Below, one piece after another: positions 11,002 through 50,894 of a stretch of 64,000 nt of DNA (position 1 is its first letter; every line of letters starts with the position of its first letter). Under the pieces are notes generated by a model. It made no database searches and was not told the origin of the DNA. It saw nothing but the letters and a program-made list of their open reading frames with translations. The position numbers were made by a program, and so were the translations under genes. The DNA is from Plantactinospora endophytica (GTDB taxonomy: Bacteria > Actinomycetota > Actinomycetes > Mycobacteriales > Micromonosporaceae), in contig NZ_BONW01000016.1 of the NCBI RefSeq assembly GCF_016862915.1, positions 248,001 through 312,000 on the forward strand, written 5' to 3'.

Positions 11002-11004
11002 CGG

Positions 11005-11535: not shown

Positions 11536-11619
11536 GCGCCCGTCCCGGTGACGGTCCACCCGAGACGTCGGGTTCCCGTCAGTACGCCGCCCGGCGGGCC
11601 CGTACCCAGGGCCGGTTCC

Positions 11620-11838: not shown

Positions 11839-11863
11839 GGGATCTCCTGATGGTGGAGGGTGC

Positions 11864-12220: not shown

Positions 12221-12367
12221 GGTGCACTCCTGAGGTCGTCGGATCGGTTCGGAACGTGGCCGGTGACGACCACGGATAGAGCCTGCGCCGGCTACCACCT
12301 CCGCTACATCCGTGCTGACCACGGGGTCGCCCACGGAGTCGTACCCGGATGCGGAAGGATGGGCTCC

Positions 12368-15181
12368 GTGGCGGCGGCTCAGGCGGGGATCTCGGCCCGG
12401 GAGGCGGAGGTGCTGTCCCTGCTCGGCGAGCACCTGAGCAACGCCGAGATCGCGGCGCGGCTGTTCATCTCCGTCCGTACCGTCGAGACCCACGTCTCGT
12501 CGCTGCTGCGCAAGCTCGACGCGTCGGACCGGCGGGCCCTCGCACAGCTCGCCGCCGAGTGGAGCCGGGCGGCGCGCGGAGGCGACGCCGCAGCCGGGCT
12601 GCCGGCGCCGGTGACGTCGTTCGTCGGCCGGGTACGGGAGCGCGCGGCGCTGGCCGAGGCGGTCGGCGCGCACCGGCAGGTGAGCCTGGTCGGGCCGGGC
12701 GGGGTGGGCAAGACGCGGCTGGCGCTGGCGGTCGCGGCGGACGCGGCCGGCGACTTCGCCGACGGCGTGTGGTTCGTCGACCTGGTCCCGATCACCGACC
12801 CGGCGATGGTCGGCGCGGCGGTGGCCGGGGCGGTCGGCATCGGTGAGCAGCAGGGCCGGGGCATCGACGAGTCCGTGGCCGCCGCGCTGGCCGACCGGCA
12901 CGCCCTGCTCGTCCTCGACAACTGTGAGCACGTCCGCGACGGCGTGGCGCCGTTCCTGGAGCGGCTGCTCACCGCCTGCCCGCGACTGACCGTACTGGCC
13001 ACCAGCCGGGCCCGGTTGATGGTGCCGTTCGAGCGGGTCCATCCCGTGCCACCCCTGTCGCTGAACGGCGACGGCGAATCGGAGGCGGTGGCGCTGTTCC
13101 TCGACCGGGCGGCGGCGGTGGGCTGGCCGCTCGCCCCGGAGCAGCGCGACCAGGCCGCCGAGATCTGCCGAGGGCTGGACGGCGTGGCCCTGGCGATCGA
13201 GCTGGCCGCCGCCCGGTTGCCCACGCTCGGCCTGGACGGTCTCACCGACGTGCTGCCGGACCAGCTCCGGCTGCTGACCGGGGGCGCCCGGGCCGACGAC
13301 CGGCACCGGTCGGTGCGGGCGATGCTGGACTGGAGCGACGCCCTCCTGGAGCCGGCCGACCGTACGCTGCTGCACCGGATCGCGGTGTTCGTGGCGCCGT
13401 TCACGGTGGACGCCGCCGGGCAGGTGGCCGGGTTCGCGCCGCTCGAACCGTCCTCGGTGGTCGACGGGCTGGCCCGGCTCACCGAGCAGAGCCTGCTGAC
13501 GGCCGCCCCGTCCACCGGCGGTACCCGCTACCGCACGCTCGAGCCCGTGCGCCAGTACGGCGTACAGCGGCTGGCCACCGCCGGTGCGCTCGCCGAGGTC
13601 CGGTCCCGGCACCTGCGCTGGTGCCTGTCGGGCGCGATCGACCTGGCGGCGGGGGTGCGCGCGGTGGACGGGCCCTGGCGGGCCCGCTTCGACGTGGTGG
13701 CCGACGACCTGCGGGCCGCGCTCGGCTGGGCGGCCGGTGTTCCCGAGCAGCACGCCGACGCCCACCGGTTGGCCGTCGCCCTGGCCGAACTGGCCTTCGC
13801 CCGCAACCTGGTCGGCGAGTCGCAGCAGCGGTACGAGCAGGCGGCGACGCTCACCGGCGAAGCCGCCGCCACCGCCGAGGCGCTGCGGCACGCGGCGGCG
13901 GTGGCCGGCTGTCGGCTGCTCGGCGACGAGATGTACCGGCTGCACCGTGCCGCCGCCGACGCCGCCGAGCGGGCCGGGGACAAGGCCGGCGCCGCCCGCG
14001 ACCTGGCGACGGCGGCCACCGTCGCGTACCGGTTCTCCGGTGCGTTCGTCCGGGTTCCGCCACCGGCGGAGCCGATGGAGCTGTTGACCGCGGCCCGCGA
14101 GCTGACCGGCGACGACCCGGGTGACGCCGCCGTGGCGCTGGCCGAGGCCGCGGTGCTCACCGACGCGTTCGGCTCCGACCAGGGCCCGGCGGAGAACATG
14201 GTCGCCGACACGCTCGCCGCCGCCGCGCGGGCGGTCGAGCTGGCCCGCCGGACGGACGATCCGCTGACCGGATCCGCAGCGCTCGACGCGCTGGCCGGTG
14301 CGCAGAGCTGGGCGGGGGACAGCTTCGCTGCCTCGGCCACGGCACGGCGCCGGGTCGAACTGCTCTCCTCGATGCCGGTGACCCCGGCCACCCGGCTCGA
14401 ACTGACCGACGCGCTGGTCTCGGGCACCGACACCAGTCTCGGCGTGGGGGACCTGCCGACGGCCCGCCGGTGGGCCCGGCAGCTCGCCGACCTGCCGCTG
14501 CTGGCCGAGGTGGGGCACTACGCCACGTCCTGGCTGTTGACGGTCGACGCGCTCGCCGGCGACGGGAACTCGGTGCTCGCGTTGAGCGGGCGGTTCCTGG
14601 AGGCGTGGCAGCGCACCGGCCGGGTCCGGGCACCGCGTCTCGGCGCCGCCGCCGCTGCGGTCGCGATGATCCACGGACTGCGGGGCGACGACGGCGCGCG
14701 GCGGGAGTGGCTCTCCGTCGCCGAAGAGCTGGGCTCCACACCGGACCGCAGCGCCGGCTACGGCGCCGTCTACGACGCGATCGTCCAACTTCAGCACGGC
14801 GAGGCGGAGGCGGCGCTGGCGCGGTTGGCCGCCGAGCCGGAGGACATCTGGAAGTGGGTCACCTGGATCTGGCTGCACTGGTATGTGGCGCTGCGTGCCG
14901 AGGCGGCGGCGCTGACCGGGCACCCCGACGCGCGTCGTCGGATCGCCGCCGGCCGGGCGATCGTGGCCGGCAATCCGGTCGCCGCCGCCCAACTGGACCG
15001 GGCGGAGGCGATGCTCGACGGCGACCGGAACCGGCTGCTCGCCGCCGCGACGGCGTTCGATGCCGCCGGCTGCCGCTACCAGTGGGCCCGGACGCTGGTA
15101 CTCCTCGGCGGGGAGCATGCCGTGACCGGCGCGTCGGCCCTGGCCGACCTCGGCGTCGCCGCCGAGGGAGCGGGCCGGTGA
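12368..15181 (+). CDS. regulator with N-terminal LuxR HTH and NB-ARC/TPR-like region
   Basis: 937 residues. A LuxR-type helix-turn-helix is at the extreme N-terminus (SAREAEVLSLLGEHLSNAEI, then ISVRTVETHVSSLLRKL). An AfsR-like NTPase follows, with Walker A GPGGVGKT and a Walker B-like LLVLDNCEH. The rest is a long helical, TPR-like region without recognised domains. LuxR HTHs of LAL proteins usually sit at the C-terminus, so this order is reversed; it fits a known class of NB-ARC regulators with an N-terminal HTH. GTG 12368 has GGAAGG 9 nt upstream; ATG 12359 would leave no spacing. It is divergent from the VOC operon, its likely target. Confidence 0.85.
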   Translation: MAAAQAGISAREAEVLSLLGEHLSNAEIAARLFISVRTVETHVSSLLRKLDASDRRALAQLAAEWSRAARGGDAAAGLPAPVTSFVGRVRERAALAEAVGAHRQVSLVGPGGVGKTRLALAVAADAAGDFADGVWFVDLVPITDPAMVGAAVAGAVGIGEQQGRGIDESVAAALADRHALLVLDNCEHVRDGVAPFLERLLTACPRLTVLATSRARLMVPFERVHPVPPLSLNGDGESEAVALFLDRAAAVGWPLAPEQRDQAAEICRGLDGVALAIELAAARLPTLGLDGLTDVLPDQLRLLTGGARADDRHRSVRAMLDWSDALLEPADRTLLHRIAVFVAPFTVDAAGQVAGFAPLEPSSVVDGLARLTEQSLLTAAPSTGGTRYRTLEPVRQYGVQRLATAGALAEVRSRHLRWCLSGAIDLAAGVRAVDGPWRARFDVVADDLRAALGWAAGVPEQHADAHRLAVALAELAFARNLVGESQQRYEQAATLTGEAAATAEALRHAAAVAGCRLLGDEMYRLHRAAADAAERAGDKAGAARDLATAATVAYRFSGAFVRVPPPAEPMELLTAARELTGDDPGDAAVALAEAAVLTDAFGSDQGPAENMVADTLAAAARAVELARRTDDPLTGSAALDALAGAQSWAGDSFAASATARRRVELLSSMPVTPATRLELTDALVSGTDTSLGVGDLPTARRWARQLADLPLLAEVGHYATSWLLTVDALAGDGNSVLALSGRFLEAWQRTGRVRAPRLGAAAAAVAMIHGLRGDDGARREWLSVAEELGSTPDRSAGYGAVYDAIVQLQHGEAEAALARLAAEPEDIWKWVTWIWLHWYVALRAEAAALTGHPDARRRIAAGRAIVAGNPVAAAQLDRAEAMLDGDRNRLLAAATAFDAAGCRYQWARTLVLLGGEHAVTGASALADLGVAAEGAGR

Positions 15182-15267
15182 CCGCACCGACCGCTACGGC
15201 GCGGGCGCCGCAGCTCGGGCCGGCTCCGACCTCATCGGTCTGGTCGTTCCTTCTCGACCTCGTCGGT

Positions 15268-15666
15268 CTAGGGATGCAGGCGCCCGGGATCCTGTAGCAC
15301 GGTCTCCGCCAGACGGCGCGGGAACATCCGCCGTACGCTCGCCGCGTAGCCGGCACCGTCGGCGGGTTCGGTGACCTGGTCCTCGTCCACCCGCACCGGT
15401 ACGGAGACGCCCTGCGCCGGACCGTCGGCGGTGGGCGCCGTCTCGCAGATCGCCCAGGCGAACGACGACGAGCCCGCACTGCCGAGCAGTCGTACCCGGC
15501 AGGTGCCGGAGGCGCCGAGCAGTGTGTCGGGCAGCAGCGCGGCCAGGCGCTTCTCCTCGTCCCGCACGGCAGCCGTGTCACGGTCCGGCAGTGGGTACGG
15601 TGACTCGGTGCAGCCGGTGACGAGCCCGGCCAGCAGTCCGACGGCGACGACATGTCGACGAAGCAT
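15268..15666 (-). CDS. putative lipoprotein
   Basis: 132 residues. The N-terminus MLRRHVVAVGLLAGLVTGCT has a basic head, a hydrophobic core and a lipobox-like LVTGC with Cys19, so it should be exported, lipidated and anchored outside the membrane. Two further cysteines (in GTCRVRL and AICETAP) may form a disulfide. No domain is recognised. It ends convergently with the LuxR-type regulator gene, leaving 86 bp with no clear feature. Confidence 0.75.
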   Translation of the reverse strand: MLRRHVVAVGLLAGLVTGCTESPYPLPDRDTAAVRDEEKRLAALLPDTLLGASGTCRVRLLGSAGSSSFAWAICETAPTADGPAQGVSVPVRVDEDQVTEPADGAGYAASVRRMFPRRLAETVLQDPGRLHP

Positions 15667-15715
15667 GCCTGCGATCGTGCCATCTCCGGACCAGGGCGGG
15701 CCCCGGGCGCCGCGA

Positions 15716-16732
15716 TCAGGAGCGGCTGTCCGAGTCCGCCTCCTCGATGTCGGGCAGCGAGACCTTCGGGGGGAGCCGGCTCTGTCGGTCGGCCTCGGTG
15801 AGGAGCCGCCACTCCGACGGCGTGCACCCGTACTGCTGCTTGAACACGCGGGAGAAGGAGGAGTGGTCGGGGTACCCGGACGTCCGGGCGATGGTCGCGA
15901 CCGACACCAGTGCGTTGGCGGGGTTGGCGAGTTCCCGGGCGGCCCGGTTGAGCCGCTCCGTCCTGATCCACTCGCCGAGCGAGATGTTCATCCGGGCGAG
16001 CACCGTGTAGAGGTACCGCTTCGAGATGCCGAAGTGCGCGGCGAGCTTGTCGGCGTTGAGTTCCGGGTCGCGCGCGTGGGCCCGTAGGTGCAGCATGATC
16101 CGTGTGCCCAGCGTCTGGCTGAGTGGCTGCCGGCTGAGGAACTCGTCGCCGGCCGCGGTCGTCAACAGGGCGCGGAGCAGGTCGATCGTCGGGTACGCGA
16201 GCGCGGCGGCCTGGGCCTGGGAGAGTTCGGGCAGCGCGGCCAACTCGGTCAGGTACCTGCCGACCAGCGGCCCGAGCGGGCTGCGCCCGACGTTGCGGAC
16301 CATCACGTCGCGGAGGAGGAGGTAGGGCAGCCCCAACTCCTCCATCGTCACGGTGACGGACCAGGCGAGGACGGGCTCCTCCGACTGGAGCCTGAGGGCG
16401 TCCCGACTCCAGTACGGCACCATCGAGCCGGACCGTTGCCGATCCACCCGGTCGTTCTGGGCGATCGTGTAGGGCCCGGTGGTGACGGTCAGGACCAGCC
16501 GGGCCGCCGAATCCCGCCGGGCGAGGCTGGCCGACCGGTAGCCAAGGAAGTTGTCGAGCGTGGTCCGGGTGACGTTGATCCCGCCGAAGTAGCGGTCCAT
16601 GTGCTGGAACCTGACCGTACGGCCACGGTCGGCCGGACGGGCCCGGAACGGCACGGAGCAGGTGCGGGCCGCCTCGTCGAGGATGTCGACCCGGGAGGAG
16701 GGCTCGCAGTCGGTCAGGTTGAAGTAGCGCAT
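15716..16732 (-). CDS. AraC-family transcriptional regulator
   Basis: 338 residues. The first 200 form an AraC-binding-like domain of the type in AraC/TetR-like activators (MDRYFGGINVTRTTLDNFLG). The C-terminus has the two HTHs of AraC/XylS: LNADKLAAHFGISKRYLYTV and VATIARTSGYPDHSSFSRVF, followed by KQQYGCTPSEWR. ATG 16730-16732 has CGGAGG upstream. It is divergent from the alpha/beta hydrolase at 17056 across 323 bp that carries 21-bp-spaced direct repeats. Autoregulation and control of that hydrolase are inferred. Confidence 0.92.
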   Translation of the reverse strand: MRYFNLTDCEPSSRVDILDEAARTCSVPFRARPADRGRTVRFQHMDRYFGGINVTRTTLDNFLGYRSASLARRDSAARLVLTVTTGPYTIAQNDRVDRQRSGSMVPYWSRDALRLQSEEPVLAWSVTVTMEELGLPYLLLRDVMVRNVGRSPLGPLVGRYLTELAALPELSQAQAAALAYPTIDLLRALLTTAAGDEFLSRQPLSQTLGTRIMLHLRAHARDPELNADKLAAHFGISKRYLYTVLARMNISLGEWIRTERLNRAARELANPANALVSVATIARTSGYPDHSSFSRVFKQQYGCTPSEWRLLTEADRQSRLPPKVSLPDIEEADSDSRS

Positions 16733-17055
16733 CCCGTGGGCCTCCGGTTGCCACTCAAGGCGACATCAGCCGCTCCACCACACGCGAAGAGTAGCGCCAC
16801 GCCGGCTCCGTTCGCGCCGGCCGGACGTGCATCTTGCTGTGCCGGGCGTGCACATCCGGGCGCCCTGAGCAGGTGGCCCGGAATCCGGTGCACCGGACGC
16901 ACAGCACGACGCACTACCGGTTAAAGCGGCGGACCGGGTCCCGCGCCTAGGGTCTCGGCCAAGGGTGCGAGCACCTGATCGGCGACTCAGGGATCCGGTC
17001 GACGGCGACCTCCCCGCGTCCTGGTTTCCTGACTGTTTCCGAAGGGACTTGTCTG
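16733..17055. promoter_or_regulatory. divergent control region with AraC-like direct repeats
   Basis: Non-coding. CCGGACGTGCAT (16821-16832) is repeated as CCGGGCGTGCAC (16842-16853), 10 of 12 identical and exactly 21 bp apart, two helical turns, as AraC-type proteins often require. A perfect 14-bp palindrome, TCCGGTGCACCGGA, follows at 16884-16897. These lie between the AraC gene and the hydrolase and are the best candidates for its operator. Confidence 0.45.
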
Positions 17056-17874
17056 ATGGCTCCGGACACGATCGTCCTGGTGCACGGCTTCTGGGTCACC
17101 CCACGTAGCTGGGAGCACTGGATCAGCCACTACGAGCAGAAGGGGTTCCGGGTGATCGCCCCCGGCTACCCGGGCTTCGAGGTCGAGGTGGAGGCGTTGA
17201 ACGCCGACCCCGACATCATCACCTCGGTCACGGTCAAGGGCATCATCGACAAGATCGAGAAGATCATCCAGGGGCTGGGGCAGCAGCCGATCATCATGGG
17301 GCACTCCGCAGGCGGGGCGTTCACCCAGATCCTGCTCGACCACGGGTACGGCGCGGCCGGCGTCGCGCTCAACTCGGCGCCCACCGAGGGCGTACGGGTG
17401 GTGCCGCTGTCGCAGGTCAAGTCCACGTTCCCGGTGTTGAAATCGCCGGCGAACCGGCACCGGGCGGTCGGCCTCTCCCTGGAGGAGTGGACGTACGCCT
17501 TCACCAACACCTTCACCCCGGAGGAGTCGAAGGCGCTGTACGAGCGCTACCACATCCCCGCCAACGGCGGCATCCTGTGGGGCAGCGTGCTGGCCAACTT
17601 CCAGCCCGGCCACCAGGACACCTGGGTCGACTACCACAACGACGACCGGGCGCCGCTGCTGTTCGTCTCCGGCGGTGAGGACCACATCATGCCGCCGGCG
17701 ATCCAGCAGTCGAACCACCGGCACTACAAGTCGGACACCGTCACCGAGATCCGGGAGTACCCCGGCTACGCCCACCTGTTGCCGGCGCAGCAGGGCTGGG
17801 AGGCGATCGCGGACGAGGTACTCGACTGGGCGCTGCGGCACGCCCGTACCGGCCCGGTGCCGAGCGCCGGTTGA
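17056..17874 (+). CDS. alpha/beta hydrolase
   Basis: 272 residues. VLVHGFWVTPRSWEHW gives the HG oxyanion loop, IMGHSAGGAF the nucleophile elbow (Ser84), SGGEDHIMP the acid region, and YPGYAHLLPAQQGW the catalytic His. There is no signal peptide, so it is cytosolic. The layout is that of the actinomycete alpha/beta hydrolases often annotated as lysophospholipase-like or esterase; the true substrate is unknown. ATG 17056 follows AAGGGA with 8-nt spacing. Its divergent AraC neighbour suggests inducible expression. Confidence 0.88.
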   Translation: MAPDTIVLVHGFWVTPRSWEHWISHYEQKGFRVIAPGYPGFEVEVEALNADPDIITSVTVKGIIDKIEKIIQGLGQQPIIMGHSAGGAFTQILLDHGYGAAGVALNSAPTEGVRVVPLSQVKSTFPVLKSPANRHRAVGLSLEEWTYAFTNTFTPEESKALYERYHIPANGGILWGSVLANFQPGHQDTWVDYHNDDRAPLLFVSGGEDHIMPPAIQQSNHRHYKSDTVTEIREYPGYAHLLPAQQGWEAIADEVLDWALRHARTGPVPSAG

Positions 17875-17987
17875 CCGACGTCCGGCGCGCTGCTCCTGGC
17901 GGCGTGGTCGACCGGCCGGCGGGGTAGGCCCACGGGTGGAAGTGTGGTCAACCCGCCGGGCGGGGCGACGGTTGCTATCGTGCGGGC

Positions 17988-18230
17988 GTGGGTTCCAACA
18001 GCGGCCAGACGCTGACCGTCACCGCCCGCGAGGTGGTCGACCGGAAGTTCGACCCGTCCAGTTATCCCTACCGGCATCTCGCCGTGGTGCAGGTCGCCAA
18101 GATCGGCACGCCGGACAGCCAGATTCCGCTTGTCATGGGCGCGGTGGAGACGCTCGGCCAGATCGGCTGGGAACTCGCCGCCTTCACCATGGCGAACCGG
18201 ACCGTCGTGGCGGTCATGCGCCGGCGTTAG
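17988..18230 (+). CDS. small conserved-looking protein of unknown function
   Basis: 80 residues, start GTG 17988. Composition and codon use are gene-like; the sequence has SYPYRHLAVVQVAKIGT and ends TVVAVMRRR. This alternation of strands and a helix (MGAVETLGQIGWELAAF) resembles short DUF4177-like proteins, but I cannot assign it firmly. A TATCGT hexamer ends 6 nt before the start, so the transcript may be leaderless. The last 53 bases, with the stop, are duplicated immediately downstream. Confidence 0.65.
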   Translation: MGSNSGQTLTVTAREVVDRKFDPSSYPYRHLAVVQVAKIGTPDSQIPLVMGAVETLGQIGWELAAFTMANRTVVAVMRRR

Positions 18231-40864: not shown

Positions 40865-43522
40865 GTGAACCGTATCCAGACACCGCTGGTGGCACGGTCC
40901 AGTCTGGTCCAGCAGGTCCTCACCGCGGTGACCACCGATCGTGGCGCCGTGGTGGTGGGACAGCGGGGGACCGGGCGTACGACGCTCGTCGAACTCGTCA
41001 CCCGGCATCTGTCGGCCGACCGCTACGCCGTCACCCGTACCACCGCCACCGAGGCGGCACGTCCGATCCCGTTCGGCCTGTTCGGCCAGCTCTTTCCGGT
41101 GAGCGGCGACCCGGCACTGGTGCCCGGTCGGATCCGCGCCGAGCTGGTGCGACGTGGCCGGTCGCGTACGCCCCTGCTGGTGGTCGAGGACGCGCACTGG
41201 ATCGACGACCGGTCGGCGAACACCCTGCTGGGCCTCGCCCACGACGGTCGCGTCCGGTTGATGGTCACCACGCGCTCGGACACGGCGACGCCGGACGCCG
41301 TCGTGGCGCTGTGGAAGGACCGGCATCTGCGCCGGGTCGACCTGCCACCGCTGGACCCGACCGAGACGGCGACCCTGACGCAGGCGATGCTCGGCCACGC
41401 CGTGGCGTCGACCACCGCACAGTTGGTGTACCAGTGGACCGGAGGCAACCCACGGCTGGCGACCGAGCTGGTGCGGCACGGCTCCGTCACCGGTCGGATG
41501 GTCCACGACCGGGGACTGTGGTGGTGGCGAGGGCAGCTCAGCGTGCCACCACACCTGGTCGAGCTGTTCCTGCCCGAACCCAACCGGCTCACCCCGGCAC
41601 ACCGGGACGCGCTGGCGGCGGTCGCGGTGAGCGACGACCTGCCGATCGAGCTGGTCGACCGGATCGCCCCGGACGCCGTAGAGGAACTGGAGGACCTGAA
41701 CCTGCTGCGTACCACCGACACCGACGACGGTGTGGCGGTGGGGTTCGGTCATCCGCTGCTCCAGGCGATCGTCTGGTCGCAGGTGTCGCCGGCCCGGCGG
41801 CGTCGGGTCGCGTCGGCCCTCGTCGAAGCGGCGCACCAGTCCGGCCACACCACACCGGATCCGGCCACCGTCGCCCGCTGGCAGTTGGCCGTGGGTGCGC
41901 CGGTCGCCACGAGGGCGTTGACGGACGCCGCCCGCCAGCTCCGACCGCACGCGCCGGAGCAGGCGCTCCGGCTGGCCCGGGTCGCGTTCGGTCGGGACCG
42001 GTCCGCGCGGGCCGCCGTACTGCTGGCCGACGCCCTCGCCGAGGTCGGCTCCGGCCGCGAGGCCCAGTCGGTACTCCACCAGGCGACCGCCTCCGACCGG
42101 TCGCCCACCGGACGTGTGCTGCTCTCGGCCGCGCTCGCCCTGCACCGGTGTGTGACGGAGCGTGACCCGGCGTCGGCCCACGCCGACCTGCGGGCGCTCC
42201 GCGCCGTGGCGTCGACCACCGGACACGACGCCATCGACGGCGCCGACGCGACGGTCCTGTTGATCGGGCAGCGCCCGGCCGACGCCGCGCGGGTCGCCGA
42301 CCGGCTGCTGCACCGGCTCCCCGACGCCGGAGCCGTCAGCCACTCCGCACTACGGTGCCGGATCGTCCGGACGATGGCGCTGGCCCTGCTCGGCCGTACC
42401 GACGAGGCGGCCGTCGCGGGCGCGGCGGTACTGGCGGATGCCCGGGGTCAGCACGCCCGACCCCCGGACACCGCGGGCCTGGCCTCGGCCGTGCTGTCCC
42501 TGATCGGGTTGTGGCGGGACGGCAGCGCACCGCCGACGGTCACCGATCCGGTCCTCGGACGCTGGCCGAGGCTACCGGGGAAGGTACCCGGGACCGGCCT
42601 ACGTGCCGTCGACTGGCCGCTGCTGGCCGGGTACGCCCGGCTGCTCCGGGGCGAATACCCGGCCGCGATCCCGCCGCTGCGCGAGGCACTGGCGCAACAG
42701 TCCGTCGGGTTCCGGCTGTTCCGGTCGGAGGCGTCGGCCTGGCTCGCCGTCTCGCTCGCCGCAACGGGGCGCCCGGACGACGCGCAGCAGGTGCTGGACG
42801 CCGACCCGCCCGATCGGCTGGCGGTGTTGCCGGGCCTCCGGCCGTGGGCCGACGGTGCGGTGGCCGCCGCCCGAGGCGACACCCGGTCCGCCGGGCGCCG
42901 GCTGGAGGCGGCGGTGGCGGCGGCACACGCGGCGGGCTGCTGGAGCATCGAGCTGCAGTACCTGACCTGGGCGGCACAGCTTCCGCCGGCCGACCAGCCG
43001 GTCGCGCTGGCGGACCGGCTCACCCGCTGCATCCGGCACGTCGAGGCGGGGCGGCTGGTGGCCGAGGCACGCGGCGAACTGGCGCTGTCCGACTCCGACC
43101 CGACCGGGCTGCTGCAGCAGGCCACCCGGCTCGCCGAGCTGGGCCTGCCCCGGCGGGCCTGGCGGCTGGCCGAGGCTGCCGCCGCGAGGGCGTCACCCGG
43201 CCGCGACCAGGACCACGCCGCAGCCGTCGCGCTCGCCGGTCGGCTCCGTACCGCGCTCGGCGTGCCGGCACCGAATCCGGCCTCACCGGCCCTGACGATC
43301 CGGGAGACCGAGGTCGCGGCCCTCGCCGCCAGCGGTCTGGCCAACCGGGAGATCGCGACCCGGCTGGTCGTGTCGGCCCGGACGGTGGAGAGCCATCTGG
43401 CCCGGGTGTACCGGAAGCTCGGCATCGGTTCCCGTCGGGACCTGCGGACGCACTGGTTCGACAGCCTCCCGGTCGGCGGCGGCCCGGGATCGAGGACGAC
43501 CCCGGGCAACTACCCGGTCTGA
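40865..43522 (+). CDS. LAL-type LuxR-family regulator
   Basis: 885 residues. The N-terminal AAA-like ATPase has a Walker A of form GQRGTGRT (32-39) with Arg38 instead of the usual Lys, and Walker B LLVVEDAHWID. A helical middle follows, and the C-terminus is a LuxR HTH: TIRETEVAALAASGLANREI and SARTVESHLARVYRKLGI. LAL proteins activate secondary-metabolite or catabolic operons. GTG 40865 has AGGAGGGGG upstream. It ends 3 nt from the end of the ABC exporter genes, so it is most likely the regulator of that cluster, with the GTCGGGTACGC sites as candidate targets. Confidence 0.9.
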   Translation: MNRIQTPLVARSSLVQQVLTAVTTDRGAVVVGQRGTGRTTLVELVTRHLSADRYAVTRTTATEAARPIPFGLFGQLFPVSGDPALVPGRIRAELVRRGRSRTPLLVVEDAHWIDDRSANTLLGLAHDGRVRLMVTTRSDTATPDAVVALWKDRHLRRVDLPPLDPTETATLTQAMLGHAVASTTAQLVYQWTGGNPRLATELVRHGSVTGRMVHDRGLWWWRGQLSVPPHLVELFLPEPNRLTPAHRDALAAVAVSDDLPIELVDRIAPDAVEELEDLNLLRTTDTDDGVAVGFGHPLLQAIVWSQVSPARRRRVASALVEAAHQSGHTTPDPATVARWQLAVGAPVATRALTDAARQLRPHAPEQALRLARVAFGRDRSARAAVLLADALAEVGSGREAQSVLHQATASDRSPTGRVLLSAALALHRCVTERDPASAHADLRALRAVASTTGHDAIDGADATVLLIGQRPADAARVADRLLHRLPDAGAVSHSALRCRIVRTMALALLGRTDEAAVAGAAVLADARGQHARPPDTAGLASAVLSLIGLWRDGSAPPTVTDPVLGRWPRLPGKVPGTGLRAVDWPLLAGYARLLRGEYPAAIPPLREALAQQSVGFRLFRSEASAWLAVSLAATGRPDDAQQVLDADPPDRLAVLPGLRPWADGAVAAARGDTRSAGRRLEAAVAAAHAAGCWSIELQYLTWAAQLPPADQPVALADRLTRCIRHVEAGRLVAEARGELALSDSDPTGLLQQATRLAELGLPRRAWRLAEAAAARASPGRDQDHAAAVALAGRLRTALGVPAPNPASPALTIRETEVAALAASGLANREIATRLVVSARTVESHLARVYRKLGIGSRRDLRTHWFDSLPVGGGPGSRTTPGNYPV

Positions 43523-43525
43523 CCC

Positions 43526-45586
43526 TCAGGCCAGGACCGAGCCACGAGCTGCCGGCGGAGACGACGGCGACGCGGGAGACGACGGCGACGCGGGAGACGA
43601 CGGGGTCGACGGAGACGCCGGGGTCGGCGGCCCGGCGGCGTACGCGGCGGCGTGTAGCGCGTACATCGCTGCGTAGCGGCCCGCCCGGTCGACCAACTCG
43701 GCGTGCGGGCCGCACTCGACCACCCGGCCGTCGTGCAGGACCACGATCAGGTCCGCGTCGCGTACCGTGGTGAGGCGGTGCGACACGACGACGGTGATCG
43801 GTGCGTCGGCGGTCGACCGGGTCGGCGCGAGATACCGGCGCAGCAGTTCGGCCTCGCTGTCCGGGTCGAGACTGGCCGCCGGCTCGTCGAGCAGCACCAC
43901 CTCGGGTGTGGTCCGCATCCGGCCCCGGGCGAGTGCGAGCTTCTGCCACTGGCCGGCGGAAAGGTCCGTACCGTCGGGGAACGTCCGACCGAGACGGCTG
44001 TCGAGGCCGGCGGGCAGTTGGGCCACCATGGTCGCCGCGCCGGCCGATTCCAGCGCCGCGCCCACGGCCTCCCGGTCGTCGATCGCGCTCAGCCGGCCGA
44101 CCCCGACCGACTCCCTGGCCAGCAACTCGAACCGGCAGAAGTCCTGGAACACCGCAGTGACCCGGCCCCGCCACTCGGCCGGGTCCACCCGCGCCAGATC
44201 CGTACCGCCGAAGGTGATGCGCCCGGACGACGGCGGGTAGAGACCGGCCAGCAGGGCCACCAGGGTGGACTTGCCGGCACCGTTGTCGCCGACGACCGCG
44301 ACGGTGGCACCGGCGGGCAGCCGGAGGTCGATCGGGCCCAGGGCCGGGGTCGCCTCGCCGGGGTACCGGAAGCTGACGCCGTCGAGGACGAGGTCGCCGC
44401 GCCGGGGCAGATCCCGGCTCCGGCCGCCGTTGGTTGCGCCGGCTCCGCTGGTTCGTCTTGTGCCGTTGGCGCTGTCGGCTCCGTCGGTCCCGTCGGCTCC
44501 CTCGATCCCGTTCGCACCGTCCGTTCCGCTGGCGCCCTCCGTCCCGTTGGCGCCGTCGGTTCGGTTGGCGCCGTCGGTCCGGTTGGTGGCGTCGGTTCCG
44601 TTGGTGGCGTTGGCGCCGCTGACTGGATGGTCGGCCAGGCGCTGGTAGAGCGCGACGGTGTGCAGCGACCGACGCAGCCATCCGATCAGCCAGCTCAGGC
44701 CGGTCGTGGCGCCGACCAGCCGGGTGCCGAGCAGCAGGACCAGCACCGCCTCCCCGGCCGACGCGGTGCCGGAGAGGGCGGACCGGGTGACGACGTACAG
44801 CCCGCCGACGAGGGCGGCGCAGAACAGCAGCCAGCCGGCCGCCACCGCGACGGCGCCGCGAGCCCGGGCCGTTTCCCGGCGGCGCGCCGAGACGGTGAAG
44901 GCGGCCCGGTGCCGGGCGGCGATCTCGTCGCCCAGCCGGTAGAGCCGGACCTCCGGAGCGGCGGCCGGATCGGTGGCCAGGGTCAGCAGGGCGGCGCGTT
45001 GACGGTCGGCCTCGGCACCGGCCACCTCGGCGGCGGCGACGGCGTTCGCCTGCCAGCGGATGGCGACGGCCAGCGGCACGATGCACAGCGGCAGCAGGGC
45101 AAGCGTCGGGCTGACGGTGGCCATCAGCGCCACCGCGCCGACGAACCGGGCCAACAGGCCGGCGTTCTCGACCAGCGCGGCGAACGCGCCGCCGAACTCG
45201 GTCCGACGCTGCCGGACCAGCTCGGCCGTGTCGAGGAACTTCGGGTCGTGGTAGTGGCTGACGTGGGCGGGACCGGCGCACAGGTTCATCAACCGGCGGT
45301 CGAATTCGAGTCCGACCCGCTGCTGGAGCACCTGCCGGAGATCGGTGGCGACCGCGCTCGCCTGGTGGACGAAGACGGTGACGAGGACGAGGACCAGCGC
45401 ACCGGTCAGCGCCTCGGTGAACTGCTCGGCGACCGCGCCGTCGACCATCCAGCGGAGCCCCAGCGCCTGCGTCGCCGCGACGATGTTGAACAGCGGGACG
45501 AACACCATGACCAGTACCGCGCGCCGGGGATCCGCCCGAACGGCGACGCCCACCACCAGGCGGGCGGCGCCCAGCCAGCTACGCAT
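43526..45586 (-). CDS. ABC exporter, second half-transporter
   Basis: 686 residues: six-helix membrane domain, then ABC domain with [35 protein letters not shown] and the H-loop VVSHRLTT. It overlaps the first exporter gene by 8 bp, and the two probably form a heterodimer like the RamA/RamB peptide exporters. About 75 residues between the domains (from residue 315) are an Asn-Gly-Thr-Asp-Gly-Ala repeat, and the C-terminal tail is Pro-Ser-Ala repeats; both are DNA-level expansions (about 44430-44640 and 43550-43640). ATG 45584-45586 is preceded by GCAGGAGGC. Exported substrate: probably the modified decapeptide product, inferred. Confidence 0.9.
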   Translation of the reverse strand: MRSWLGAARLVVGVAVRADPRRAVLVMVFVPLFNIVAATQALGLRWMVDGAVAEQFTEALTGALVLVLVTVFVHQASAVATDLRQVLQQRVGLEFDRRLMNLCAGPAHVSHYHDPKFLDTAELVRQRRTEFGGAFAALVENAGLLARFVGAVALMATVSPTLALLPLCIVPLAVAIRWQANAVAAAEVAGAEADRQRAALLTLATDPAAAPEVRLYRLGDEIAARHRAAFTVSARRRETARARGAVAVAAGWLLFCAALVGGLYVVTRSALSGTASAGEAVLVLLLGTRLVGATTGLSWLIGWLRRSLHTVALYQRLADHPVSGANATNGTDATNRTDGANRTDGANGTEGASGTDGANGIEGADGTDGADSANGTRRTSGAGATNGGRSRDLPRRGDLVLDGVSFRYPGEATPALGPIDLRLPAGATVAVVGDNGAGKSTLVALLAGLYPPSSGRITFGGTDLARVDPAEWRGRVTAVFQDFCRFELLARESVGVGRLSAIDDREAVGAALESAGAATMVAQLPAGLDSRLGRTFPDGTDLSAGQWQKLALARGRMRTTPEVVLLDEPAASLDPDSEAELLRRYLAPTRSTADAPITVVVSHRLTTVRDADLIVVLHDGRVVECGPHAELVDRAGRYAAMYALHAAAYAAGPPTPASPSTPSSPASPSSPASPSSPPAARGSVLA

Positions 45587-47420
45587 GACGGCCTCCTGCG
45601 GACTCGGTGAAGGGCGCAGACTGCACCCGGAACATCTGGGCGTACCGGCCGTCGGCGGCCAGCAGCTCGTCGTGGCTGCCGTACTCGCTGACCCGGCCGT
45701 CCCGCACCACGGCGATCCGTTCGGCGAGCCGGACCGTGGCGAACCGGTGCGACACCAGGATCGTGGTGATGCCGGCGGTGATCTCCAGGAACCGCGAGTA
45801 CAGCTCGTACTCCGCCTCGATGTCCAGGTGTGCGGTGGGTTCGTCCAGGACGAGGACTTTGGCACCCTGGCGCACCGCGTAGAGCGCCCGGCTCAGCGCC
45901 AGCCGCTGCCACTGGCCGCCGGACAGTTCCGTCCCGCCCGTGTAGGCGTTGGTGAGCAGGGTGTCCCAGCCGTCGGCCAGCCCCTGCTCGACACCGAGGA
46001 AGCCGCCGAGCCGGGCCGCCTCGGTCACCGCCTCCCCGGTGGCGGTCGTCTCGACCGCGCCGAACGCGATGTTGTCGCGTACGGAGAACGGGTACCGGCC
46101 GAAGTCCTGGAACACCACGGCCAGTTGCCGGCGCCAACTGGCGAGGTCGTGGTCGTGCAGGTCGTGGCCGTCGACCCGGACCAGACCGGAATCCGGCCGG
46201 TACAGCCCGGCCAGCAGCTTGGTGATGGTGCTCTTGCCGGCGCCGTTGTCCCCGACGATCGCCAGCGAGGAACCGGCCGGAATGACGAGGTCCAGGCTGT
46301 CCAGCACCGGTCGGCGGTCGCCGGGGTACCCGAACGACACCCGCTCGAACCGGATCTCGCGGCGCGGCAGACCGGTCGCCTCGCTCCCGGCGACGGTGCT
46401 CGCCGACGTGCCCAGCGCACCCACGGCGAGCGCCGGCGGTACCGCCGCGCTGGCCAGGTGCAGCCGCCGTTGCAGGTCGCCGGTGAACCCCAGGGCGAAG
46501 AGCCCGAGCAGCGCCTGTAGCGCGACGGTGAGCTGGCCGACCGGCGGGTCGCCGTTGCTGGCGCCGTAGGCCAGCGGCACCACCACGACGACGTGTGCCG
46601 CCAGCAGGAGCGAACTCGCCGCCAGGTGCCGCCGCCCGTCGGTGGTCCTGCGGCGCATCTCGACGATGCCGTCCCACCACTCCCGGGTGAAGCGTTCGAC
46701 GAGCCAGTGGTGCAGGCCGAACAGGCGCAGCTCCTTGGCCGACGGTGCGGTGACCGCGACGTCGCGCAGGTACGCCGCGTGCCGGAGCTGGACGGTTCGC
46801 GCGGTGTTGGCCACGACGGCGCGGGCCATCTCCTGCTCCTGCCACCGGCCGGTGACGATCCAGGCGGCGCCGAGCACCACCGGCATCCACCACTGTCCGG
46901 CCCAGCCGAGCAGGACGGCGGACGCCAACCCGGTGAGCCGGAGCGGGACCAGCGCGGCCAGCGCGTTGACCGCCTGTCCGGGGGCGTGCGCGCCGACGCC
47001 GACCCCACGGGCCTGCTCGATCTGGTCGGCGACCCCGGCGTCGTCGAGGTGCGCGACCCCGGGCGGACGCAGCGCGCCCTCGACGGTACGTTGGGCCAGG
47101 GCGCCGTCCACCGCAGTACTCAACTTCGCGGTGACCATGGTGCGGATCGGTTCGAGGGCGATGTCCAGCACGAGCGCCAGCGCCAGGAGGGTGAGCCCGG
47201 ACCACGCGTGCCGGGCCGCCGTCGGGTCACCGTCGCCGGCCGCCAGCGCCGTGACCAGTCGCCCGATCGCCAGTGGCAGCAGCACGACGCCCGCGACCTG
47301 TCCGGCGACGAGCGCGACGAGCAGCATGGTGAGCGGGGCGTCGATGCGCGGCAGTTCGCGGACGAGCGCCCGTACGCTGCCACGGCGGTGGGTCACGCCG
47401 GCTGTCGTTGAGGTCGACAC
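45579..47420 (-). CDS. ABC exporter, first half-transporter
   Basis: 613 residues. The membrane part has about six helices (VLLPLAIGRLVTAL; LTLLALALVLDIALEPIRT). The ABC domain has Walker A GDNGAGKST, Q-loop VVFQDFGRYPF, signature LSGGQWQRLALSRA, Walker B VLVLDEPTAHLD and H-loop LVSHRFAT. No N-terminal peptidase domain is present, so any leader removal needs another enzyme. GTG 47418-47420 follows AAGGAG (9-nt spacing); a start at 47513 would run through a hairpin. It is 100 nt downstream of the decapeptide stop. Confidence 0.9.
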   Translation of the reverse strand: MSTSTTAGVTHRRGSVRALVRELPRIDAPLTMLLVALVAGQVAGVVLLPLAIGRLVTALAAGDGDPTAARHAWSGLTLLALALVLDIALEPIRTMVTAKLSTAVDGALAQRTVEGALRPPGVAHLDDAGVADQIEQARGVGVGAHAPGQAVNALAALVPLRLTGLASAVLLGWAGQWWMPVVLGAAWIVTGRWQEQEMARAVVANTARTVQLRHAAYLRDVAVTAPSAKELRLFGLHHWLVERFTREWWDGIVEMRRRTTDGRRHLAASSLLLAAHVVVVVPLAYGASNGDPPVGQLTVALQALLGLFALGFTGDLQRRLHLASAAVPPALAVGALGTSASTVAGSEATGLPRREIRFERVSFGYPGDRRPVLDSLDLVIPAGSSLAIVGDNGAGKSTITKLLAGLYRPDSGLVRVDGHDLHDHDLASWRRQLAVVFQDFGRYPFSVRDNIAFGAVETTATGEAVTEAARLGGFLGVEQGLADGWDTLLTNAYTGGTELSGGQWQRLALSRALYAVRQGAKVLVLDEPTAHLDIEAEYELYSRFLEITAGITTILVSHRFATVRLAERIAVVRDGRVSEYGSHDELLAADGRYAQMFRVQSAPFTESAGGRHA

Positions 47421-47472
47421 GGTGGCACACTCCTTGCGACGTCGACGGTTTCGGTCCTCCGCTGCCGGGCCC

Positions 47473-47503
47473 GCGGTGGCCACCCGCACGGGGTGACCAC
47501 CGC
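47473..47503 (-). terminator. 13-bp hairpin between decapeptide and exporter genes
   Basis: Arms 47473-47485 and 47491-47503 pair over 13 bp with one G-T, around a 5-nt loop. It starts 17 nt after the decapeptide stop. No U-tract follows, so it may be a leaky terminator or an mRNA 3'-end stabiliser that makes the first cistron more abundant than the exporters, as in many peptide operons. Confidence 0.7.
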
Positions 47504-47520
47504 TGTCAGGCACCTGCCCC

Positions 47521-47553
47521 TCAGGCGGGGTCGACCGGCGGGTAAGCGGACAT
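47521..47553 (-). CDS. candidate ultrashort RiPP precursor MSAYPPVDPA
   Basis: Ten codons, ATG 47551-47553 to TGA 47521-47523, giving MSAYPPVDPA. AGGAGGTGAATC lies directly before the ATG: a full Shine-Dalgarno with 6-nt spacing, the best in the window. The open frame lies between a divergent radical-SAM gene and two ABC exporters and is followed by a 13-bp hairpin, as expected for a highly expressed peptide gene. Tyr4 is a plausible target for cross-linking; three Pro and one Asp surround it. It could instead be an attenuator leader for the exporter operon. It is far too short to have a normal leader, as in the biarylitide-type precursors. I know no named family with this sequence. Confidence 0.5.
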   Translation of the reverse strand: MSAYPPVDPA

Positions 47554-47642
47554 GATTCACCTCCTGCGCTGGCGACGAGCAGCGAACCGTGGCGGCTGCC
47601 ACGCCAGAACGCTAGGCGCCGAGGTGGACCGGGGAATCGGTA

Positions 47643-47748
47643 GTCGGGTACGCAACGGCGCCGCCGGGACTACCGAGGAGCGACCGTCGGGTACGCGTCA
47701 CCGGGGCGTCAGACCTGCGTAGCCGGTCGCGGTGCTTGCGTACCCGAC
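47643..47748. promoter_or_regulatory. three GTCGGGTACGC sites in the divergent promoter
   Basis: Exact copies of GTCGGGTACGC at 47643-47653 and 47686-47696, and its inverse at 47738-47748. The first and third share a flanking AA (GTCGGGTACGCAA). They span the 270-bp gap between the decapeptide and radical-SAM genes and so could bind one regulator for both; the LAL protein encoded at 40865 is the best candidate. Confidence 0.5.
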
Positions 47749-47823
47749 GCCGATGTCCCGGTCGGTGCGGCGCTCGTAGGGTTCCGGCGACCGCACTGCC
47801 GATCCCGCCGGGAGATCCGTCTC

Positions 47824-48900
47824 ATGACTGTCGACGCAGGTCCGAACGTCCTCATCTGGGACGTCACGTTCGCCTGTCCGCTGCGATGCTCGCACTGCTA
47901 CACCGAGTCGGGCCGGCGCCGTCCGCAGAATCTCAGCCACGAGGAGATGCTGCGGGTGGCGGACGCGCTCATCACCTTCCGGCCCGTCATGATCACGCTC
48001 TGCGGGGGTGAACCGCTCACCGTGCCACGCATCGTGGAGGTGGTGGAACACTTCGCCAGGGCCGGCGTGCGGGTCTTCCTGTACACCAGTGGATGGTCGA
48101 TGCCGGAGCAGACCGTCCGGGACCTGGCCGGCATCGTTGCCAAGATCGTGGTCAGCGTCGACGGCGCCACTGCGGAGGTGCACGACCGGATCCGTGGCCG
48201 GGCCGGTTCCTTCGACCGGGCGATGGCCGCGTTGGCCCTGCTCGACGCGGAGAGTGCCCGGCGGGTCGCGGCGGGGGAGTCGCCGCTCCGGTTCGGCATC
48301 GACAACGTGGTGGTCCGCAGCAACTACCACCAGCTCGACGAGATGTGCACCTCGGTCGCACCCCGGTTCCCGCACCTGAGCGAGGTCGCGTTCGGCGCGG
48401 TGGTGCCCACCGGTCTGGCCAGTCGAGTGTCGTACGGCGAGCACGAGATGCTCTCCGACGAGCAGGTCGCGGCCCTGGTCGACGAGGAGACGCGGCAGCG
48501 GCTCCAGCGCGCCGCCCCCGGATCGGTCACCGTCAGCACGACGGACAACTTCGGTGTGCAGATGCATCCCGACTACATCGCCAGCCATCCCGACTTCCGG
48601 CCGTTGGAGATCGAGCCGGACGGCGGGGTACGGGCGATGCCGATCTACGAGGGCACCGTCGGGAACCTGCTGACCGAGGACCCGTACGTCCTGTGGGAAC
48701 GGTCCCGGAGCCGGTGGCAGGACCCGTTCGTGCTGGAGTGTCTGCGCGGCATCCGGAGCAGGCGGGACTGGGCCGAGGCGGTACGCCGCATCGACTACCG
48801 GTTCGGCTCGGACGAGGTGCGGGCGCGGATCGACCGCCGCCGGGTCTTCGAGCCGGGCCAGGCACCCCGGCAGATCGCACTGCGACCGGTCGGCGGCTGA
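47824..48900 (+). CDS. radical SAM protein without auxiliary-cluster cysteines
   Basis: 358 residues. Cx3Cx2C motif CPLRCSHC (Cys18, 22, 25) for the SAM-bound [4Fe-4S] cluster, then ITLCGGEPLTVPRI (GGEP) and VVSVDGATAEVHDRIRGR, the typical SAM-contacting stretch. The C-terminus has the shape of a SPASM/twitch region (YEGTVGNLLTEDPYVLWERS) but only one cysteine (FVLECLRGI), so it should have a single cluster. Its target is probably the decapeptide encoded in the opposite direction; epimerisation or C-C bond formation are both possible. ATG 47824 follows GGGAGA. Confidence 0.88.
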   Translation: MTVDAGPNVLIWDVTFACPLRCSHCYTESGRRRPQNLSHEEMLRVADALITFRPVMITLCGGEPLTVPRIVEVVEHFARAGVRVFLYTSGWSMPEQTVRDLAGIVAKIVVSVDGATAEVHDRIRGRAGSFDRAMAALALLDAESARRVAAGESPLRFGIDNVVVRSNYHQLDEMCTSVAPRFPHLSEVAFGAVVPTGLASRVSYGEHEMLSDEQVAALVDEETRQRLQRAAPGSVTVSTTDNFGVQMHPDYIASHPDFRPLEIEPDGGVRAMPIYEGTVGNLLTEDPYVLWERSRSRWQDPFVLECLRGIRSRRDWAEAVRRIDYRFGSDEVRARIDRRRVFEPGQAPRQIALRPVGG

Positions 48901-49119: not shown

Positions 49120-50379
49120 TCAGACGGGGGCGGGAGCGGAAGCGGGCGAGGGTCGGGTCATGGTGAAGCGCCGCAGTGGTGGGACGAGGGCGGTGATCAG
49201 TGCCAGTCCCGAGAGGCAGGTGACCCCGCCGACGACGAGCGCCGTACCGGCGGAGGTCTCGGCTCCGACCAGCCCGGCGCGGAGGCCACCGGCGTGCGGT
49301 CCGGCCACCCCGACGATGTGTTCGAGTGCGGCGACGCGTCCCCGGTGGGAGTCCGGTGTCGACGACTGCACGATGGTGCCTCGGGCCACGACGGACCAGG
49401 TGTCGGCGGCGCCGGCCAGGGCGAGCAGGGCGAGTACGACCGGAAGTTGACCGCTCACCCCGACTCCGGCGAGCGACACCGCCCACCCGGCGCCGCAGCC
49501 CAGCAGTACGAGGCCGGGACGGCGGGACCGGGTGACCGTACCGGACAGCGCGGACGCGAGGATTCCGCCGAGCGCGACCGCCGAGGTGAGCAGGCCGAGG
49601 ACCTCCGGCGACCCGCCGAACCGCTCCTGGTTGACGACCGGAAACAGGGCCATCGGCATGGCCAGCACCGTGGCGCACAGGTCCACCATGAATGCACCTC
49701 GGATCGCGGGCGTACGCGCGACGAACGCTATGCCCGCCCAGACCGCGCCCGCGCCGGCCCGGCCGGCCGCCGCGGCCGGCTTCGTCGGCGGCAGTCCGGC
49801 GATTCCGATCAGGGCAGCCACGCAGAGCAGCGCGTTGCCCACGAAACACACGGTGGTGCCCCACCGCGCGGTGAGCACCCCGGCGAGGGCCGGGCCGAGC
49901 AGCAGCGCCATCTGGAAGGACAGGTGGTTCAGGGCCAGCCCGCCGGCGAGCCGGTCGGTGGGGAGCAGCCGGGGGACGAAGGTACGCCGGGCGGGGCCGC
50001 CGACCGCCGAGAAGCCTCCCGCGACACCGACCAGCGCGAGCATGGCCCACACCCCGTCGTCGGACCGGACGGCCACGGCGGCCATCAGCAGGCTGGTGAG
50101 GATCTGCCCCCAGGTGGTGACCAGGGCCAGGCGGCGTCGGTCGACGTGGTCGAGGAAAGCGCTGCCGATCAGGGCGAACGCGACCAGCGGGGCGGCGGCG
50201 AAGGCGCCGATCAGCCCGACCTTCACCGGGTCGTGGGTGTGTTCCCAGACGTAGAGCGTGACGGCGAAGACGCTCATTTGGCCACCGAATCCGGCGGCGG
50301 TGGTGCCCAGCCAGAGGCGGCGGAAGGCGGGGTACTCGCGTAGCGGGCGGACGTCGACCAGGGCGCCGAGGAGTTTCAT
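49120..50379 (-). CDS. MFS transporter (EntS-like MFS_3 group)
   Basis: 419 residues with 12 helices. It begins RPLREYPAFRRLWLGTTAAG, the usual N-terminus of MFS_3 exporters, followed by DHVDRRRLALVTTWGQI (motif A-like) and GPALAGVLTARWG (motif C-like). ATG 50377-50379 overlaps the MarR stop (ATGA), so the two are translated together. The substrate is probably the ligand of the MarR protein. Confidence 0.88.
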   Translation of the reverse strand: MKLLGALVDVRPLREYPAFRRLWLGTTAAGFGGQMSVFAVTLYVWEHTHDPVKVGLIGAFAAAPLVAFALIGSAFLDHVDRRRLALVTTWGQILTSLLMAAVAVRSDDGVWAMLALVGVAGGFSAVGGPARRTFVPRLLPTDRLAGGLALNHLSFQMALLLGPALAGVLTARWGTTVCFVGNALLCVAALIGIAGLPPTKPAAAAGRAGAGAVWAGIAFVARTPAIRGAFMVDLCATVLAMPMALFPVVNQERFGGSPEVLGLLTSAVALGGILASALSGTVTRSRRPGLVLLGCGAGWAVSLAGVGVSGQLPVVLALLALAGAADTWSVVARGTIVQSSTPDSHRGRVAALEHIVGVAGPHAGGLRAGLVGAETSAGTALVVGGVTCLSGLALITALVPPLRRFTMTRPSPASAPAPV

Positions 50380-50894
50380 CGCAGACGTCCGTCGAGGGCC
50401 TTGGCGAGGTTGTCGTCGAGGCGCTGCCGGAACGAACGGGTGGCCAGGGCGGCGTTGACGTCCTCGACGGCCCGGCTGAGTGCGTAGGGGATCTCCTCCT
50501 CCAACTCCCGTACCGTCGCCTCGGTCGCCCGCCACTCCGCCTCCAGCAGCGGCAGGATCTCCCGGCCCCGGTCGCTGAGCCGGATCCGTCGGGTCCGACC
50601 GTCACCGCCCTCGGCGCTCTCGACGAACCCGGCCGTACGCATCGCGGCGGCCGTCTGGCTCATCGCCGAGTGGGTCACCTCCACGGCGGTGGCCAGTTCC
50701 TGGATCGTCATCGACTCGTGCCGGGAGAGCTGGATCAGCGGACCCACGAACCGGGGGCGCAGGCCGGGCAGGCCCGCCTGCCGGTAGAGCGTGGCGATGT
50801 CCTGGTCCATCTCGCCGAGCATCCGCCAGAGGGGACGCCAGTGGCTGCTGTCCAGTAGGTCCTGGCGGCTCGCCTGATTCTGCTGATCGGCCAT
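50376..50894 (-). CDS. MarR-family transcriptional regulator
   Basis: 172 residues. Winged helix: MTIQELATAVEVTHSAMSQT with the wing AEGGDGRTRRIRLSDRGREI. Helices at both ends form the dimer interface. A near-perfect dyad lies 7 bp before its start codon. No Shine-Dalgarno is seen before ATG 50892-50894, so the mRNA may be leaderless. It should repress itself and the MFS gene until a ligand binds. Confidence 0.92.
   Translation of the reverse strand: MADQQNQASRQDLLDSSHWRPLWRMLGEMDQDIATLYRQAGLPGLRPRFVGPLIQLSRHESMTIQELATAVEVTHSAMSQTAAAMRTAGFVESAEGGDGRTRRIRLSDRGREILPLLEAEWRATEATVRELEEEIPYALSRAVEDVNAALATRSFRQRLDDNLAKALDGRLR

Follow-up and report, generated by a model that had tools for sequence, protein, structure and literature searches.

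We analysed a 64,000-nucleotide stretch of the Plantactinospora endophytica genome (hereafter the window; 248-312 kb of contig C16) and propose that a ten-codon open reading frame (ORF) within it, encoding MSAYPPVDPA, is quite probably an ultrashort, leaderless precursor of a ribosomally synthesised and post-translationally modified peptide (RiPP), which would be modified at its pair of aromatic residue and proline (aromatic-Pro) by a radical S-adenosylmethionine (radical-SAM) enzyme and exported by an ABC pair. The ORF lies on the minus strand at 47521..47553 and reads ATG TCC GCT TAC CCG CCG GTC GAC CCC GCC TGA (47553..47521), with aromatic-Pro at residues 4-5; its Shine-Dalgarno sequence, AGGAGGTG (47558..47565, minus strand), ends 4 bases 5' of the ATG. 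It is flanked by a divergent radical-SAM gene (47824-48900) and a pair of genes for an ABC exporter (45579-47420, 43526-45586), with a terminator-like hairpin of 13 perfect base pairs (47473..47503, minus strand) starting 17 bases past its stop, between it and the exporter genes, and a gene for a large ATP-binding LuxR (LAL) regulator (40865-43522) closing the cluster. A sequence-only reading of this DNA had described the frame with its Shine-Dalgarno sequence, the setting between radical-SAM gene and paired exporter, the strong hairpin and the LAL regulator, all of which are confirmed by coordinates and Pfam matches (GerE and AAA_16 for the regulator). Its interpretation of the decapeptide as an ultrashort RiPP precursor also gains support, at the level of sequence, from conservation in 17 of 17 genomes and from constraint on Tyr-Pro-x, as set out below.

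Each of the 17 genomes found to hold the clade of this enzyme (17 rows, support 100/100) has a tiny ORF of 9-14 codons, with Tyr/Phe-Pro close to the N-terminus, that is bordered by an ABC pair on one side and by the divergent enzyme gene on the other. We refer to this arrangement, with the LAL gene, as the cassette; the genera include Plantactinospora, Actinorhabdospora, Streptomyces and Crossiella, plus further relatives. The ORF is therefore conserved where enzyme and exporters are, a point on which the sequence-only reading had staked its case. A 300-genome sample of the family yielded relatives of the enzyme with 88-92% identity from four more Plantactinospora genomes, and one with 69% from a further genus, the close enzyme being present in five of seven genomes of the genus (that of P. 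endophytica included). A scan of 84,980 species genomes gave 14 loci, namely Plantactinospora mayteni, Actinorhabdospora filicis, eight Streptomyces loci from seven assemblies, Crossiella and three more distant ones, and a 249-genome sample around Crossiella added three more cassette members (L073-L075). Since no new member was found in a 394-genome sample of the Streptomyces family or in a 394-genome sample of the class, we consider the cassette to be rare. Exporter and LAL genes were found in the cassette loci by tblastn or protein clustering, the LAL alignment being partial in L055 (last third only) and in L098 (first half only, in one piece). The truncated second contig of the L052 assembly (L053) has no LAL gene and is not counted in the 17; the enzyme tree omits it along with L087 (the same locus as L059). 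Several loci were met twice (L004=L048, L006=L049, L050=L066, L058=L076, L059=L100 and L062=L068), and two with partial matches of 34-39% (L060 and L061) were left out, save for L060 as a row of the structure alignment.

The cassette ORFs were listed without any motif requirement, as Shine-Dalgarno-led frames and, in one listing, frames restricted to the intergenic stretch. The 17 are MSAYPPVDPA, MRAYPPVDAS (three copies), MRAYPPVDAL, MRKYPDVGA, MMYPPPTTGGN (two copies), MMYPPPTVGTGR (two copies), MMYPPPTVGD, MMYPPPTVGDAS, MMYPPPTTSGPRPS, MAYPPTGLGR with a GTG-start twin, MAYPPTGVGR and MAFPPTTLGGTR. Two alternative ATG starts are possible in the Streptomyces ORFs. The sequence GGAGGTG precedes 16 of the 17, with AGGTGGTG in its place in L073. 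The sequence-only reading had suggested looking for a conserved Y-P-P-V-D, of which only part survives: aromatic-Pro near the N-terminus is kept, but the whole of YPPVD is not, as the relative MRKYPDVGA shows.

On the enzyme tree, the minimum numbers of changes by codon position (1/2/3) come to 1/2/9 for [YF]-P-x and to 8/6/5 for the three codons behind it, and pairwise differences among 14 distinct ORFs behave likewise, with 13/26/142 for [YF]-P-x and 169/158/93 for the three codons that follow. The Tyr codon itself changes 0/1/3 times, and ORF length differs between loci by whole codons. Because the minimum changes concentrate at third positions, we conclude that [YF]-P-x is under constraint at the level of protein, with a tail that is free in both sequence and length. 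This codon-position bias supplies, for Y-P-x, the pattern of substitutions on which the earlier interpretation had also depended, and an encoded precursor that is conserved beside a modifying enzyme and constrained at the protein level, the pattern by which a RiPP is recognised, is what we find here. An alternative, in which the frame exists by chance within a conserved promoter or untranslated region and a small molecule is the substrate of the enzyme, might be entertained for a frame of only ten codons whose core DNA hardly varies within the genus. The third-position bias, the whole-codon changes in length, the retained Shine-Dalgarno sequence and the lack of the motif in ORFs of the same size away from the enzyme speak against such a frame, and we regard it as very improbable indeed.

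The last of these points comes from a control in which Shine-Dalgarno-led ORFs of 8-15 codons were collected from the window plus 53 further stretches (loci of 9.5-21 kb, with overlap among some). It gave 79 distinct ORFs, 21 of which have aromatic-Pro in residues 2-7, and inspection of the list placed all 21 beside the radical-SAM family, although five are Streptomyces ORFs that the count includes in a longer form as well; no such ORF with aromatic-Pro was found away from the enzyme in this material. One member, MAFPPTTLGGTR, escaped the filter, its site being AAAGGTGGTG, and MALPKLDPRKTW, which is also next to the enzyme, stands outside the 21, having Leu-Pro. Separately, a search of the P. 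endophytica genome for GGAGGTG, spacer, ATG, spacer and Tyr-Pro gave three matches, which are the window ORF, G000:C42:153078-153105 and G000:C63:7358-7388 (L143, L144).

Tiny ORFs were also seen outside the cassette, in three kinds of locus from four genomes, directly downstream of a radical-SAM gene of the family and on the same strand (54-56% identity for those with aromatic-Pro). These are the Shine-Dalgarno-led MAWPSWPEGIR in L103 and the near-identical L105, where an MFS gene follows, the Shine-Dalgarno-led MAYWPPTKVSH in L104, and MALPKLDPRKTW in L086/L096, all three having been picked by eye from a long motif-free list of ORFs. No gene matching the ABC pair of the window was found in the 17-kb stretches of L096, L103 and L104. 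Because such loci have the ORF without a matching ABC pair, the tiny ORF appears separable from the exporter and tied to the enzyme. A single clade for all tiny-ORF enzymes gave an approximately unbiased test p of 0.141 (21 rows against 31), such that one origin is neither shown nor rejected. Beside these ORFs, a UvrA-like gene lies upstream of the radical-SAM gene in L103 (radical-SAM 7962-8999, tiny ORF at 9073) and L105, whose product could be a self-resistance factor, and an M28-type peptidase gene (10346-12058) lies about 1 kb downstream of MAYWPPTKVSH in L104 (tiny ORF at 9142), which might trim the peptide or be unrelated to it.

More distant relatives of the enzyme, approximately 50-58% identical to that of the window, belong to clusters with a class III lanthipeptide synthetase (LanKC). 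Among 33 distinct non-cassette loci, taken as stretches of 9.5-20 kb, a protein of a single LanKC-like cluster is present in 21, the synthetase domains (RamC_N, kinase and/or LANC_like) being confirmed with Pfam in the cluster members of L041 and L088 and the rest being assigned by clustering; five loci have an S9-type peptidase by clustering (Pfam-tested in L041). The precursor-like ORFs of the LanKC loci have a leader that ends in aromatic-Pro-Cys (LFPC, LWPC, QWPC, LYPC and RFPC). Using an automatic filter blind to the motif, a precursor was recognised in 19 of the 22 LanKC rows with the enzyme and [FWY]PC in 19/19, which becomes 18/18 as the 22 rows represent 21 distinct loci (L059 and L100 are one contig). 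With a filter requiring [FWYL]P, AFPC was seen in L042, AWPC in L043 and no candidate in L037. As a control, 40 stretches with LanKC loci lacking a detected enzyme were taken from the window's family, and none of their 26 precursors has [FWY]PC (0/26); these stretches are 6-7 kb long, so that a more distant enzyme would escape, many are SapB-like and perhaps of one lineage, and the loci are not independent. An earlier control on 30 short loci gave no precursors, because these lie downstream of the synthetase, and was repeated on the longer stretches. The [FWY]PC contrast between LanKC loci with and without the enzyme is nevertheless strong. The sequence-only reading had given the enzyme the tiny ORF as its partner peptide, which is supported for the cassette, but the tiny ORF is not the sole type of partner, since the family also pairs with lanthipeptide precursors that carry aromatic-Pro-Cys.

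Loci L038-L044, L047, L059, L088-L094, L099, L101, L109 and L110 are class III lanthipeptide-like, include a radical-SAM gene and have precursors whose core opens with [FWY]PC, and [FWY]PC may be a sequence rule for a possibly uncharacterised subgroup of class III lanthipeptides. The precursors of L102 and L106 also have [FWY]PC, the synthetase not being detected within the stretch. In L036 (G036, approximately 8477-18029) a relative of the enzyme is found near a LANC-like protein and an exporter pair approximately 55-60% identical to that of the window. The genome of P. endophytica has two RamC_N matches (E <= 1e-20), on contigs C9 and C39, and none on contig C16.

Several observations weigh against our proposal that the tiny ORF encodes a modified peptide. 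No dedicated peptidase was found among the cassette genes. The tiny ORF MALPKLDPRKTW beside an enzyme relative has Leu-Pro, one of the three precursor paralogues in L090 has Met-Ala-Cys in place of aromatic-Pro-Cys, and seven of the 33 non-cassette loci (L036, L037, L045, L046, L107, L108 and L111) have no candidate peptide. In a weak consensus fold (-2.0 kcal/mol) the CC of the Pro codons is paired with the Shine-Dalgarno sequence, and RNA pairing could add to the constraint on these bases; it would not explain the constraint on the Tyr codon, or the motif in unrelated precursors. Finally, the ORF occupies the position expected of an attenuator leader peptide, and the 5' arm of the hairpin, with the 3' arm omitted, has a predicted partner zone at -52 to -36 relative to the ATG, the pairing exceeding that of at least 95% of 40 shuffles in 6/17 loci (L002, L003, L048, L049, L055 and L074; mean pairing 0.40 versus 0.19 shuffled). 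This zone was chosen after an earlier fold result, and four of the six are closely related or one step removed.

Attenuation of this kind operates in drug-exporter operons of the Bacillus subtilis bmrB/bmrCD type, and by analogy the ORF could be a regulatory leader peptide in which a ribosome stalled at the proline run gates transcription past the hairpin into the exporter genes. The cassette shares with bmrB-type leaders a short proline-rich ORF, a hairpin and a heterodimeric exporter, the ORF lies between promoter and hairpin directly upstream of the ABC genes, Pro-Pro or Pro-Pro-Pro is present in 16/17 copies, and the pairing of the 5' arm in six loci also speaks for it. However, MRKYPDVGA keeps aromatic-Pro without Pro-Pro, such that the stall motif is not conserved in all copies (16/17). 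The window's own locus makes no use of the partner zone, and neither do L054, L056, L057, L058, L073 and L075; the zone is located at or upstream of the presumed start of transcription. In the alignment no consensus pairing of the hairpin arm with upstream sequence was found, the alternative partners differing between loci, and there is no antiterminator common to them. Moreover, the ORF is tied to the radical-SAM gene across contexts, following it without a matching ABC pair in L096, L103 and L104, aromatic-Pro recurs in the longer precursors of enzyme relatives, and, if the ORF were a leader peptide, the cassette would contain nothing for the enzyme to act on. We therefore consider a regulatory leader to be unlikely, albeit the most serious of the alternatives. 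A dual role is also conceivable, in which a modified precursor gates exporter expression through its translation or serves as an autoinducer sensed by the LAL regulator. It would account for the conservation of regulator, operator-like repeats, hairpin and exporter along with the ORF, but no alternative RNA fold is common to the loci, and we hold such a role to be distinctly improbable.

Returning to a dedicated RiPP precursor, the enzyme has features that would suit so short a substrate. It is a protein of 358 amino acids (47824..48900, plus strand) that matches PF04055 (E 4.6e-20), with a CX3CX2C motif at residues 18-25 whose cysteines are the only ones common to all 54 aligned rows of the family, the window enzyme included. 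No C-terminal cysteine is shared among the 54 rows, and the cysteines that hold the auxiliary Fe-S clusters of SPASM maturases are not found; Cys60 marks the 17 cassette rows and L086. The stretch IEPDGxVRAMPIYEGTVGxLL resembles what we take to be half of a SPASM domain without its cysteines. An AlphaFold2 model of the enzyme (pLDDT 83.2, 13 sequences) is without an N-terminal RiPP recognition element (RRE), for which there is no room because the first strand of the model starts at residue 9, and the modelled lack of an RRE would fit a precursor without a leader. Against solved structures, the top Foldseek matches are the RiPP maturases SkfB (query TM-score 0.63) and SuiB (0.57-0.62), and the best NCBIfam match is the mycofactocin maturase TIGR03962, for which the 105 bits obtained do not reach the curated cut-off of 265 bits. 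The enzyme is akin to MftC and the SPASM maturases (SkfB, SuiB and PqqE) in its best family match and best solved folds, but differs from them in a score far below cut-off, in having no shared auxiliary-cluster cysteines and in its precursor.

We suggest that aromatic-Pro is the recognition site of the enzyme and probably also its reaction site. In a broader form, to which we lean with some reserve, the family would read a two-letter aromatic-Pro code without leader or RRE, serving both class III lanthipeptides with aromatic-Pro-Cys and leaderless peptides of 9-14 residues, these being made from five to as few as two genes and carrying a modification not described so far. A reaction that needs a phenol is unlikely, given that the aromatic residue can be Tyr, Phe or Trp. 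Our tentative guess at the chemistry, which is itself doubtful, is an oxidative bond that links the aromatic residue to position i+1 or i+2; dehydrogenation and epimerisation are conceivable alternatives.

The region between the tiny ORF and the enzyme gene offers some indication of how the cassette could be controlled. The operator-like repeat GGGTACGCAA has just two copies in the 64-kb window, both in this divergent intergenic region and in opposite orientation, one on the side of the tiny ORF (47646..47655, plus strand) and one on the side of the enzyme (47736..47745, minus strand). The most widely shared 7-mer, TACGCAA, which the window has only in these two GGGTACGCAA copies, is present in 16/16 of the intergenic regions examined, having been found post hoc. 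A candidate -10 element of the tiny-ORF promoter, TAGCGTT (47608..47614, minus strand), has AACGCTA/TAGCGTT counterparts in 10/16 of these regions. The hairpin stem is kept in 15/15 aligned loci, four of its base pairs having changes in both partners, and T-rich sequence lies 3' of it in L058 and L075. The paired GGGTACGCAA sites would fit a single regulator for both divergent promoters, which we infer to be the LAL protein of the cluster. In the mechanism we envisage, the LAL regulator would probably switch on both promoters through these sites, the hairpin would probably limit read-through and thereby keep exporter output far below that of the peptide, the single-cluster radical-SAM enzyme would recognise aromatic-Pro (Tyr4-Pro5 here) and act there, and the heterodimeric ABC exporter would secrete the product, trimmed or whole. 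Translation, modification and its chemistry, trimming, export and the roles of regulator and hairpin are all steps that we infer.

Among known systems the closest in design are the biarylitides and other mini-RiPPs made with a P450. The myxarylin paper calls the biarylitide precursors the smallest reported (PMC12951456), and another source gives a length of five residues (PMC13417212). The cassette resembles them in having a precursor of few codons that escapes annotation, hardly any leader and a minimal cluster. However, biarylitides employ a cytochrome P450, whereas the cassette has a radical-SAM enzyme and precursors of 9-14 rather than five residues that keep aromatic-Pro near the N-terminus. 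The 18 PF00067 matches in the P. endophytica genome (E <= 1e-10) include none inside the window, those on contig C16 lying at 30-40 kb and 467 kb. The cassette would work like a biarylitide-type mini-RiPP yet lacks the P450 and length features of that family, and would be a new RiPP variant. One paper mentions, in a general way, that lanthipeptide clusters can include radical-SAM genes (PMC7268733). Class III lanthipeptides with an accessory radical-SAM protein share with the cassette a related enzyme and aromatic-Pro in the precursor, but possess a LanKC synthetase and a precursor with a leader, both of which are absent from the window cassette. Among the matches listed, a literature search gave nothing that describes such a cassette; this is weak evidence of novelty, subscription literature being mostly outside its scope.

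If our proposal is correct, neither a leader nor a recognition domain is required for a radical-SAM RiPP, and with substrates of about ten residues the reaction could easily be examined on synthetic peptides. It would also link tiny peptides to class III lanthipeptide clusters, with a shared reaction that could be tested directly. The aromatic-Pro signature would provide a sequence rule for clusters that would be overlooked by gene callers and by mining programs requiring longer precursors.

As for the remaining genes of the cassette, the ABC exporter consists of two halves on the minus strand, both recognised with Pfam, of 613 amino acids (45579..47420, for which we chose the GTG start at 47420) and 686 amino acids (43526..45586, for which we chose the ATG start at 45586); Pfam found a peptidase domain in neither half. 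The LAL-type regulator (40865..43522, plus strand) has 885 amino acids and is convergent with the exporter genes. Just past the radical-SAM gene, at 49120-50894, the window has genes for an MFS exporter and a MarR-type regulator, which are not kept beside the enzyme in other cassette loci and are excluded from the cassette. In five cassette genomes the enzyme has an additional, more distant copy (52-59%), at G301:C1:387139, G302:C7:418814, G303:C10:104530, G304:C7:83153 and G007:C2:965532, and for four of these an aromatic-Pro-Cys precursor is present in the stretch.

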